Virus record (IMG/VR): IMGVR_UViG_3300033388_004813 | Coordinates: 1 to 37,351 of that record | Length of the DNA: 37,351 nucleotides | From: a virus | Reading direction: 5' to 3' (one strand) | In this document: positions 14,594 to 29,718 of the stretch, piece by piece | Numbering within the stretch: the stretch's first letter is position 1 | Layout: each line of letters begins with the position of its first letter | Program-made: the position numbers and the translations under genes | The notes under the pieces: generated by a model | What the model was told of the DNA's origin: nothing | The model's input: only the letters and a program-made list of their open reading frames with translations | The model's database searches: none

Positions 14594-14669
14594 TTTTGGC
14601 TAATCCTTTCGGTTTTGGGATAATTGATATAAATATTTATATGTATTATATTCTATATTCCTATTTGTT

Positions 14670-14697
14670 TTGCGTTGCGAAACCATTATGGTATAAT
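14670..14697 (+). promoter_or_regulatory. Promoter, TTGCGT-16-TATAAT
   Basis: TTGCGT lies at 14670-14675 and TATAAT at 14692-14697. The palindrome ACCATTATGGT sits just before the -10 and shares its half-site with the operator at 4543-4559. Confidence 0.5.
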
Positions 14698-14940
14698 ATA
14701 ACGCTTCAGAATGAAAAAAGCAAGAAGAAAATATAAAAAACTTTAATATATTAAAGTATTAAATACATTCTAACTATTTATTTTGTGTCACGAGACCTTA
14801 TAGAAGAAAATATAAAGAATGTGAAAGAGTTTAAACCGTTGTTTTATATGGAACAATTACATTATCACTATATGAAAGATACTTTAATATAGTTATATAT
14901 AAGCATATTAGGAACAAATAGTTGGGTGGTGTTTTTGGTG

Positions 14941-15059
14941 CTGTATGACGATATGACATGGCGTCTTAATAACTACCTTTATTCAGTATTTCATAAAATA
15001 AACTACACTATTAGTGAAGAAATGTAGTTATTAAAGGGTAGCGTCATATCGTATGACAG
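14941..15059. repeat. Nested inverted repeats in control region
   Basis: The outer arms CTGTATGACGATATGAC (14941-14957) and GTCATATCGTATGACAG (15043-15059) match at 14 of 17 positions when folded. The right arm is itself a palindrome, GTCATA-tcg-TATGAC. The inner arms TAATAACTAC (14967-14976) and GTAGTTATTA (15024-15033) are perfect. This fits an operator array, an origin or a structured transcript. Confidence 0.6.
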
Positions 15060-15210
15060 AGGTAAATATAGGGTTTAAAGCATTGGAAAATATATGGATA
15101 GTGAAAACTATATTAGAGTATCTTCTATATAATGATAAACAGATAAACAAGTAAATACGGTAAGTTACATGTATAATAGAAAAAAAGTTTCATATATTAA
15201 AAGAAATATC

Positions 15211-15239
15211 TTGACAAGCTTGAGCTTTTTGATTATATT
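15211..15239 (+). promoter_or_regulatory. Promoter, TTGACA-17-TATATT
   Basis: TTGACA lies at 15211-15216 and TATATT at 15234-15239. AAGGGAACCGCAAAAGA follows, similar to the sequence after the next promoter. Confidence 0.7.
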
Positions 15240-15288
15240 AAAGGGAACCGCAAAAGATATATATAATTAAAAGTTTTTCAGAAATAAC

Positions 15289-15317
15289 TTGACAGGATGC
15301 TATTTAAGTATTATCTT
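15289..15317 (+). promoter_or_regulatory. Promoter, TTGACA-17-TATCTT
   Basis: TTGACA lies at 15289-15294 and TATCTT at 15312-15317. It is followed by CAGGGAACGCCGAAAAGA and then the HNH gene, which it probably drives. Confidence 0.7.
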
Positions 15318-15347
15318 TACAGGGAACGCCGAAAAGAAGGTGGTGCT

Positions 15348-15818
15348 ATGAAGAGATTTTAGGATAAAGTTGTTAAAAAGGAAAATGGTTGTTGGGAATG
15401 GATTGGTGCAAAGCAAAATAAGGGCTATGGCAGAATAAAAGTAAATAAAAAATTAGTTAGTGCACACAGATTATCTTGGGAGTTATATTATGGCGAAATT
15501 CCCAATGGGATGTTTATTTGCCATCATTGTGATAATCCATCGTGTGTAAACCCAGAACATTTATTTATTGGTACTCGTTCTGAAAATATGAAAGATGCTT
15601 ATAAGGAAGGTAGGGTTCATATGCCAACAAATGGTCACGTTTTCCAAAATGGTCACATACCAAGTAATAGAAAATTAAGTACAGATAGAGCCAAAGAAAT
15701 AAAAGAAATTATAAGAAATAGGTGTAAGAAAAGTTTATATGTATTGTCTAATGAGTTAAATGTTAGTATAGGTATTTTAAAAAGAATAAGTTGTGGGGTA
15801 AGTTATAGAAACGTGTAA
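15348..15818 (+). CDS. HNH endonuclease with in-frame amber at codon 5
   Basis: After a strong AAGGTGGTGCT site the frame reads MKRF, then TAG (15360-15362), then DKVVKKENGCWEWIGAK. This family usually has RFWxKV here, so the TAG stands where Trp (TGG) is expected. The HNH core follows (AHRLSWELYYGEIPNG, ICHHCDNPSCVNPEHLFIG). Downstream in-frame starts would lose the N-terminal motif. It is either a nonsense mutant, a readthrough gene, or starts at ATG 15510 as a remnant. Several other genes here end properly at TAG. Confidence 0.7.
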
Positions 15819-27783: not shown

Positions 27784-27963
27784 TTACTCCTTTTGTGCTA
27801 GTACTAATTCAAGTGTTTGATTTCTAAAACAGTCTTCATTAAGAATGGAATTTTTATCAAACCATTGGCATGTGACAATTCCATTAGTGTTTTCTACCTC
27901 AACTGTCATTGGCAATCCACCCGATTTTAATTGTACTACGTCACCAGCTTTAAATGTACTCAT
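27784..27963 (-). CDS. DUF2158 (YodC-like) small protein
   Basis: FKAGDVVQLKSGGLPMTV followed by CQWFDKN is the hallmark of this 60-residue SH3-like family. AGAGGAGTAATAA precedes the ATG. Function unknown in this family; often carried by phages and mobile elements. Confidence 0.8.
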   Translation of the reverse strand: MSTFKAGDVVQLKSGGLPMTVEVENTNGIVTCQWFDKNSILNEDCFRNQTLELVLAQKE

Positions 27964-27990
27964 TTTATTACTCCTCTTTGTTGTTAATTT

Positions 27991-28109
27991 GTAGGTTGGC
28001 AGGAGTCCCGATTCTCCACCTACTCTGACTTGTGGTGACCCATATATCACCTTTGGGTAACTGATAAGTCTGTGCTATTTTATTTATCGTCTGTTACACT
28101 ACAACCCAC
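27991..28109 (-). ncRNA. Structured RNA candidate next to the tmRNA-like RNA
   Basis: The ends GTGGGTTG (28109-28102) and CAACCTAC (27998-27991) pair over 8 bases with one G-U. Beside the 3' strand, GTAGG pairs with CCTGC. Inside are GTAAC/GTTAC with GATAA/TTATC, and an A-B-A'-B' pair set (ACCC, GGTGA, GGGT, TCACC). The two outer helices resemble those of the 2603-2725 element. It could be a divergent tRNA-like RNA. Confidence 0.4.
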
Positions 28110-28115
28110 CTTTTT

Positions 28116-28254
28116 TGGTGGAGGTGACCGGAATCGAACCGGTGTCCAGACGTTCTTTATTATCCCCAGTACTTTGGTGGGGTCTCGCTGTACTGACGAG
28201 AGCTGCCTTTATAGCATGCCTTCAATACTTGCCTGTCGAATTCCTTTCACCCCC
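28116..28254 (-). ncRNA. ssrA-like: tmRNA-like RNA, 139 nt, no tag reading frame seen
   Basis: The 5' end, GGGGGTGAAAGGAATTCGAC, has the tmRNA D-region signature GGATTCGAC-like. The 3' end is GGACACCGGTTCGATTCCGG, then TCACCTCCACCA. The acceptor GGGGGTG/CACCTCC contains the G3-U70 pair that marks alanine tRNAs, and CCA is encoded. Inside, an H-type pseudoknot (TCTCG/CGAGA plus CAGTAC/GTACTG) resembles PK1. Ordinary tmRNA is about 350 nt with a tag and further pseudoknots; here the sequence goes straight back to the tRNA domain. A short frame ending TAATAA overlaps the pseudoknot and is probably chance. Confidence 0.75.
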
Positions 28255-28255
28255 A

Positions 28256-28597
28256 TTATTTATTCTTCTCTTTAATATGTTTTATGCCTTCATGTAGAGC
28301 ATCTATGAAATCTTGTATATGTTGTTCATCTCTAAATAAAAATTCATCTTCGTATTCTATCGGATAACCCATAAATAATTTTATAGAATTAAAAAATCTG
28401 TAAAATAAACGCGAATACCAAGGTTCCCCATAATATCTATAGTGATATGGTGTAGCCATATTTGAATATAAAGTAAGCCATGGTAAATTTTTTTCAAACT
28501 CAAGAATAAATGTTAATACATGGTCGCCACATTCACAATTTGTTTCGTAAATTACTAAATCATCAAATTCTTTTACTTTTTCTATGGTTGTTGTCAA
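28256..28597 (-). CDS. Conserved phage protein (CECGDHVLTF type)
   Basis: The N-terminal CECGDHVLTFILEFEKN and W-rich middle (EPWYSRLFYRFF, GYPIEYEDEFLF) resemble a family common in phages. I used TTG at 28597 because AAGGAATTAGAC precedes it; no better ATG was found. The gene ends two bases before the tmRNA-like 5' end. Function unknown. Confidence 0.65.
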   Translation of the reverse strand: MTTTIEKVKEFDDLVIYETNCECGDHVLTFILEFEKNLPWLTLYSNMATPYHYRYYGEPWYSRLFYRFFNSIKLFMGYPIEYEDEFLFRDEQHIQDFIDALHEGIKHIKEKNK

Positions 28598-28757
28598 AGT
28601 CTAATTCCTTCAATACTTCATCAAATGGTTTTACGTTTTCCATTTCTTTAGTGAAACATTCGTTACAAAAATAATCACCCAAAAAATCGGTAGCACCCAA
28701 TTTGCCACAAATGTCACATATAGCATTTTCCTCAAATTCAAGTTCCCTGTTGCCCAT
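28563..28757 (-). CDS. Small zinc-binding protein
   Basis: CDICGK (about residue 14) and CNEC (about 31) form a zinc knuckle in a 64-residue protein. AGAGGTTATAG precedes the ATG. It overlaps the transglycosylase gene upstream by 20 bases and the next gene by 35, fitting coupled translation. Confidence 0.6.
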   Translation of the reverse strand: MGNRELEFEENAICDICGKLGATDFLGDYFCNECFTKEMENVKPFDEVLKELDFDNNHRKSKRI

Positions 28758-29396
28758 TATTATCTATAACCTCTTTTACTGTTAATACTTTACTTATAAA
28801 TTCTCTAGTTTCTTTTGGCATAATACCCATATAATATAATTTTAACCCCGCGTTCCACGCCCATAATAATTGTACATCATTTGTAATATTACTATAGTTA
28901 TTTAATTTTACGATATATTTGCACCCGCCAGCAATGTTTTCTTCTGGGTCGTATATATTTTTTACACCGACCATGTTTGCCGTAAGTGGCATTAATTGCA
29001 TAAGACCTCTTGCACCCATATATGATTTTGCATTTGGCTTACCAGCACTTTCTGCATATATAATTGCATATATAAATGATGGTTCGATGTAATATCTGTG
29101 CGAATATTCTTCAACATATTCATACCAATCATCCATTACTTCGAGCAAAACATCGTTATCGATGGTATTGGTATTAATTATAACCCATGATGGTCTTGGT
29201 TCTGCTGGTTCTATCTGTAAAACTTTTTCCTTGATTGTGATGTTCGGTATTGCAATTTTTTCATTTGGTATATAATCCTCATATTTTTGACCTGGTTGAA
29301 TGTTTTTTGTGGTTAGTGTTATTAATGTTGCGATAAGTACGAGTACGCGTGTGGCATATAGTTGCTTATCTATTCTACCCCCCGTTCGTTCGGCAT
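28738..29396 (-). CDS. Lytic transglycosylase (SLT fold), apparent frameshift upstream
   Basis: The SLT pattern is present: catalytic Glu in IIYAESAGKP, then GARGLMQLMP, then LWAWNAGLK. It cuts peptidoglycan between MurNAc and GlcNAc. The frame is open to a TTG at 29148 without ribosome site. It continues upstream with no start codon through a membrane segment (YATRVLVLIATLITLTT). The ATG at 29396 (MPNERG) joins this frame only if the six-C run at 29378-29383 had one more base. So the true protein is probably membrane-anchored and about 220 residues. Confidence 0.75.
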
Positions 29397-29439: not shown

Positions 29440-29718
29440 TTACTCCTCCGTGGGTTTTAGGTTATTAATGCATTCAAAATATTTTTCTATTAATGTCATT
29501 CTTCCATCAGTATCGCTTTCTGCAAATGTTTTATCTAAACGTGCCATATGTACTATAAACTCAAAATCACTTATAGAGTAGTCACAACGATTTTTACCAT
29601 AAAGTAGTGTGGAAAAATAATTATAATATTTTTCTATTAATGCTATTCTTCCGTCAGTATTACTTTCTGCAAATGCATTATCTGTTTTTACACTTTCCAT
29701 TGTTTCTCTAATTAACAT
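29440..29718 (-). CDS. Small protein with internal duplication
   Basis: AFAESNTDGRIALIEKYY and TFAESDTDGRMTLIEKYF repeat with 13 of 18 matching positions, within 92 residues. The DNA is also repeated (29482-29530 and 29630-29680 areas). AAGGAGAACC precedes the ATG. No known family. Confidence 0.6.
   Translation of the reverse strand: MLIRETMESVKTDNAFAESNTDGRIALIEKYYNYFSTLLYGKNRCDYSISDFEFIVHMARLDKTFAESDTDGRMTLIEKYFECINNLKPTEE

Follow-up and report, generated by a model that had tools for sequence, protein, structure and literature searches.

A 139-nt RNA with the tRNA-like domain of tmRNA and no canonical tag in a phage genome, and its short viral relatives

The phage locus and its 139-nt RNA

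The stretch of DNA analyzed here (the window) corresponds to a 37,351-base virus record in IMG/VR. Its terminase, portal, and DNA methyltransferase genes mark the record as that of a tailed phage, and its terminase is ~44% identical to terminases of phages of Gammaproteobacteria. On the minus strand, a lytic transglycosylase gene (28738-29148), two small open reading frames, a 139-nt RNA, and a DUF2158 gene (27784-28050) follow one another in a row (Table 1). Promoter-like sites around the RNA are no commoner than in shuffled sequences and none stands out upstream. This, together with the single-base gap to the preceding stop codon, points to processing of the RNA from a longer transcript. The spacing to the upstream frame suggests co-transcription and processing by RNase P, and a start one base after the stop combined with a CCA end makes it probable that host tRNA-processing enzymes cut the RNA from the phage transcript. 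An identical RNA with nearly identical flanks is present in a 49-kb sister contig, L009, the only close relative of the window phage that was found. The next related terminases are at most 47% identical, and none of those loci carries such an RNA. As the sole homologue is identical rather than diverged, selection on the window copy cannot be shown. Neither the window nor L009 has a second tmRNA, and no SmpB gene was found in these two or in seven other carriers of short forms, so host SmpB would be required.

Table 1. Features of the RNA and its upstream neighbor in the window
Feature	Position	Strand	Basis or remark
139-nt tag-less tmRNA gene	28116..28254	(-)	RF00023 match over the full model span with internal deletion; identical copy in L009
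Acceptor stem, 5' strand GGGGGUG, with the G of G3-U70 (alanine identity)	28248..28254	(-)	Sequence; pairing checked
tmRNA D-loop signature GGAAUUCGAC	28235..28244	(-)	Sequence; RF00023 alignment
Helix 2, 5' strand CAGGC	28231..28235	(-)	Pairs with 28147-28151
79-nt insert replacing the tag region and pseudoknots found in ordinary tmRNA	28152..28230	(-)	RF00023 alignment; no canonical tag
Possible H-type (PK1-like) pseudoknot: S1 28197-28201/28183-28187, S2 28190-28195/28167-28172	28167..28201	(-)	Shuffle test
Competing nested fold: hairpin A 28222-28228/28190-28196, hairpin B 28178-28182/28164-28168	28164..28228	(-)	Constrained minimum-energy fold
UAAUAA, two stop codons in tandem between helix 2 and the hairpins of the insert	28157..28162	(-)	Sequence
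Helix 2, 3' strand GUCUG, then GAC (GGAC motif, 28144-28147)	28147..28151	(-)	Pairing; RF00023 alignment
T-arm ACCGGUUCGAUUCCGGU	28127..28143	(-)	5/5 stem pairs
Acceptor stem, 3' strand CACCUCC	28120..28126	(-)	7/7 pairs with GGGGGUG
Discriminator A and encoded CCA	28116..28119	(-)	Sequence
ORF of unknown function, 113 aa, just upstream of the RNA	28256..28597	(-)	One base between stop codon and RNA

An initial annotation had placed a tmRNA-like RNA here on the basis of its 5' signature, G3-U70 acceptor, T-arm, and CCA, and had proposed an Infernal comparison with the models of tmRNA and of ordinary tRNA. The cmscan search returned the same position and strand with RF00023 (28254-28116, minus strand) at 59.3 bits, above the gathering cut-off of 47 (E 6.6e-21). 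The alignment covers model positions 1-374 with the middle gone; ~235 model positions are absent, and 79 nt of the RNA stand against 314 model positions that the alignment leaves unshown. The annotated motifs all proved intact in sequence and in a pairing check, and the D-loop without a D-stem, GG-UUCGAC, and helix 2 are present as well. The T-arm reads ACCGG-UUCGAUU-CCGGU. The window has a single match to this motif pattern, and 100 shuffles have none. In our alignment with E. coli tmRNA, the A and U of GGAAUUCGAC and the A of GGAC are what we take to be the counterparts of the SmpB contacts A15, U17, and A334.

A chance match or an ordinary tRNA, in favor of which there is a tRNA-like T-arm and nothing else, is exceedingly improbable given the E-value; moreover, the tmRNA model outranks the tRNA model (RF00005) of the same clan, there is no anticodon arm, and ARAGORN reported neither a tRNA nor a tmRNA in the window. 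A permuted two-piece tmRNA (RF04321) was likewise set aside, as its truncated 30.2-bit match lies below the cut-off of 47 and the halves are in the order 5' then 3'. The RF00023 match and the intact tRNA-like domain thus uphold the original assignment: the RNA is almost certainly a tmRNA derivative, and its sequence retains the features required for charging with alanine and for binding SmpB.

Three further observations concern the surrounding DNA. The DUF2158 gene, which comes directly after the RNA, has a leader (27990-28060, minus strand) with two hairpins (GGTGATATATGGGTCACC and GTAGGT...ACCTAC) that match no Rfam family. A 59-nt direct repeat, 88% identical, lies at 29478-29536 and 29625-29683. 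Between two oppositely oriented gene blocks, an AT-rich region of ~900 bases (14594-15509) has no clear genes and carries imperfect inverted repeats of 47-48 nt; it may be a control or origin region.

The insert and the search for a tag

The initial annotation had also described the RNA as having no visible tag, as missing the stretch that carries the resume codon, tag, and later pseudoknots, and as retaining one PK1-like pseudoknot. The loss of that stretch agrees with the absent model positions and with the lack of a canonical frame; PK2-PK4 are absent by length, and H5 is also missing. For the pseudoknot the outcome is mixed. Stems UCUCG/CGAGA and CAGUAC/GUACUG can form with loops of 1/2/10, but shuffled sequences gave an equal or better pseudoknot in 12 of 1000 cases when the loop limits were strict and in 59 of 1000 when they were loose. 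Furthermore, a nested fold, computed with the tRNA-like domain held, reaches -43.0 kcal/mol in the constrained minimum-energy calculation, and the pseudoknot state is estimated to be 5-7 kcal/mol weaker. The RNA as a whole folds more stably than its shuffles (z -3.0). Since the CAGUAC segment is able to pair either way, both states may exist, and a PK1-like pseudoknot is regarded here as possible. The insert on helix 2 would represent a remnant, or a remodeled version, of the messenger domain's 5' portion.

The tag search covered all frames of the window RNA that begin at an Ala or Gly codon and end in a stop. None is canonical in position and context. The GCA that does have U(-5) and A(-4) (AUAAAG-GCA) meets no stop before the 3' end, while an open frame, GSSRQYSETPPKYWG, followed by UAAUAA, extends across all of the structured insert and is not preceded by U(-5) and A(-4). 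Hence the annotated absence of a tag holds for a canonical resume codon and tag but has to be qualified with respect to this frame, which crosses the pseudoknot region and ends in two stops. PK1 matters for tagging and PK2-PK4 are dispensable (PMC3968760), so the loss of the latter would not by itself block tagging; the absent frame does.

The open frame and its tandem stops, along with the dispensability of PK2-PK4, raise the alternative of a small tmRNA with an unorthodox tag, e.g., GGC...GGA-UAA-UAA (GSSRQYSETPPKYWG), that adds a non-degron or re-targeting peptide. We regard this alternative as distinctly unlikely for the window RNA. Instead of lying in a single-stranded segment that follows a pseudoknot, the frame takes up the entire structured insert; its first codon is out of context, the AUAAAG-GCA start is not closed by a stop, and no hydrophobic C-terminal degron is encoded. 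In favor of a tag, certain viral relatives of similar size have candidate frames of their own, as described below.

Short tmRNAs in other viral contigs

When viral contigs were scanned with the motif pattern and the matches passed through a fold filter, at least 106 distinct short tmRNAs emerged, nearly all from one viral collection; the counts are lower bounds in both the 112-140-nt and the ~80-nt range. At least 14 distinct RNAs of 112-140 nt (that of the window and at least 13 others) come from viral contigs, and at least 92 distinct RNAs of 79-86 nt, at no fewer than 121 loci and nearly all in viral contigs, are reduced to the tRNA-like domain (e.g., L138, L139, L140, L149, L160, L198, and L203, with at least ~114 other loci). 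The same fold filter gave 0 matches in Markov-resampled versions of the same 5.4 Mb, and the RF00023 cut-off was passed by all 14 larger forms and by 10 of the 10 small forms submitted. Identity at motif positions is partly built into the search pattern, whereas helix 2 pairing is not. Among the matches listed, helix 2 pairs over at least five consecutive bases in 79 of the 92 small forms, and it covaries, a single position showing as many as six standard pair types. A typical apex of the small forms is AAAGCCGCACGCGGAA. Most of them have no encoded CCA; an ACCA end is found in 27 of 92 among the matches listed. The carrier contigs encode terminase, tape measure protein, DNA polymerase, and helicase.

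The small-form pattern was found in 0 of 765 sampled bacterial genomes (369 of one class and 396 of one phylum). A GTDB-wide scan for mid-size forms gave 91 matches, among them a 90-nt pair (L341/L358), and the fold filter left no convincing short tmRNA; the 122-nt match L392 looks like part of a permuted gene. Matches to the window RNA in phage-collection DNA were T-arm/acceptor fragments only, and those examined were full-length or permuted tmRNAs or probable attachment sites. The tmRNA 3' ends beside integrases (L015, L621, and L623) are probably attachment sites and were left out.

Two isolated phages carry short forms, neither of them annotated. Stenotrophomonas phage Jojan60 has an 83-nt tag-less tmRNA (L537:1501-1583; RF00023, 61.8 bits) adjoining a cluster of four tRNA genes. 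In Streptomyces phage Riptide, a degenerate tag-less form (L620, ~569-648) lies between tRNA genes; UUAGAU replaces UUCGAC, its apical hairpin is that of the small forms, and it is not scored by Rfam.

Among the larger relatives, tmRNAs of 138-140 nt (L007:11474-11613, L037:1623-1762, and L327:10686-10823) have a common ACAGCAAATACGG stretch with GCA AAU ACG in frame. The candidate tags are ANTAGLTE in L007/L037 and ANTVGMFK in L327/L333, with the stop at the same codon. A 133-nt tmRNA (L485:1305-1437), in which a pseudoknot was not found, has a well-placed UAAAU-GCA and a ten-residue candidate tag, AFKTTTGRLN, ending in a stop. Judged from sequence, these frames may be tags; none has an SsrA degron-like end. 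This is the evidence for unorthodox tagging referred to above, and possible short tags in some mid-size forms mean that the class may not be one mechanism. Forms of 121-127 nt (L115:4568-4688, L325:9520-9646, and L329:10684-10809) have in common an AAGAC-UG-AA stretch; it resembles the strand that leads into helix H5 in full tmRNA and points to loss of the pseudoknot ring by deletion. A sigma-70 promoter (TTGACA-17-TATAAT) precedes the L327/L333 RNA and ends at its 5' end, and in L115 a promoter sequence ends near the RNA start, which speaks for separate transcription of these RNAs. One viral contig with a 112-nt tmRNA also has a match to the Pistol ribozyme (L491:10932-11017, minus strand; 39.5 bits against a cut-off of 34.5).

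Membership in a broad class of short tmRNAs from viruses strengthens the initial reading of the window RNA as a tag-less tmRNA. It also bears on whether the gene is a functionless, decayed remnant of a captured host tmRNA gene, as the deletion of most of the tmRNA and the lack of an outstanding upstream promoter might suggest. Such decay is very unlikely, as every tRNA-like pair is intact and many unrelated viral contigs contain short forms, in which both acceptor strands are always present and helix 2 covaries; attachment-site fragments, by comparison, retain the 3' end only.

Proposed function and relation to known tmRNAs

The window RNA has features in common with canonical one-piece tmRNA (ssrA, RF00023), i.e., the G3-U70 acceptor, D-loop, helix 2, T-arm, CCA, and possibly PK1. 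In contrast to ssrA (230-400 nt), it is 139 nt long and has no canonical resume codon or tag, no PK2-PK4, and no H5. The full-length tmRNAs of phages such as Bxz1 and Wildcat, and the permuted ones such as that of Stenotrophomonas phage Marzo, are also phage-encoded members of the family, but they keep the messenger domain, which the window RNA does not. A tRNA-like domain without a tag reading frame is likewise seen in tmRNAs of mitochondria and of Mallomonadaceae plastids (PMC11915505); these forms are organellar, however, and the plastid forms are ~65 nt with no large insert. The closest likeness is to mycobacteriophage DS6A tmRNA, a phage-borne tRNA-like domain without a tag. By its published description DS6A tmRNA has little beyond that domain, which fits the 79-86-nt viral forms, whereas the window RNA adds a structured 79-nt insert on helix 2 and is therefore a variant of the DS6A kind rather than a plain member.

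The DS6A tRNA-like-domain RNA inhibits E. coli tmRNA, with SmpB titration as a possible cause (PMC4131195, PMC11915505). By analogy, we propose, with about even confidence for and against, that the window RNA acts as a tag-less phage rival of host tmRNA, the two competing for SmpB and for stalled ribosomes. It is this function that carries most of the uncertainty, not the identity of the RNA. A tRNA-like domain alone is alanylated, and SmpB, which contacts A15, U17, and A334 (PMC8363625), promotes the alanylation (PMC3989591). In the proposed scheme, host tRNA-processing enzymes would release the 139-nt RNA from the phage transcript, host AlaRS would charge it via G3-U70, and host SmpB and EF-Tu would bind its tRNA-like domain, as the intact identity elements suggest. 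Having no usable resume codon or tag, the charged RNA would then compete with host tmRNA, and, as for DS6A, tagging and proteolysis of incomplete proteins would be lowered during infection. A pure decoy, however, needs the tRNA-like domain alone, so the 79-nt insert is left without explanation.

The chief rival of the decoy reading, also raised in the initial annotation, is a tag-less rescue factor: the charged RNA and SmpB would enter the stalled ribosome, the nascent chain would move onto the alanine, and release would follow without a degradation tag, either by drop-off and peptidyl-tRNA hydrolysis or at the UAAUAA stops that adjoin helix 2. The phage would gain recycled ribosomes, and its incomplete proteins would be spared. 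We consider this rescue role unlikely, although the same intact tRNA-like domain would serve it, the tandem stops closely follow the possible pseudoknot, mitochondrial tmRNAs that lack a reading frame are conserved along with SmpB, and very short, two-alanine tags exist in bacteria (PMC11915505). On the other side, the sole resume candidate adjoining the stops is the GGA in UACUGG-GGA-UAA, which has neither U at -5 nor A at -4, and DS6A was reported as an inhibitor, not a rescuer.

A tag-less phage tmRNA was already known from one phage, and in a 2025 survey of >97,000 tmRNA sequences DS6A is the only CDS-less phage form named (PMC11915505). The 139-nt variant with its insert and the breadth of the viral class appear to be new within the open papers searched. 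The unannotated forms in two isolated phages, and the failure of ARAGORN to detect the forms on which it was tried, reveal a blind spot in annotation; the isolated phages that carry short forms are now named and can be used to test function. The finding of at least 106 distinct short tmRNAs turns a rare oddity into a gene that is seen repeatedly in viruses. This recurrence implies that disturbing or rewiring trans-translation brings infecting phages a selective advantage, and it suggests that decoys of the host rescue system are frequently produced by phages. A wider proposal, which we advance tentatively and hold to be rather improbable, is that short tmRNAs in many phage lineages counter or hijack ribosome rescue, the smallest acting as pure SmpB/ribosome decoys and the larger ones, with an insert, allowing tag-free ribosome exit. 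If so, such an exit, through an immediate stop or a non-degron tag, would give the infection ribosome recycling without proteolysis.
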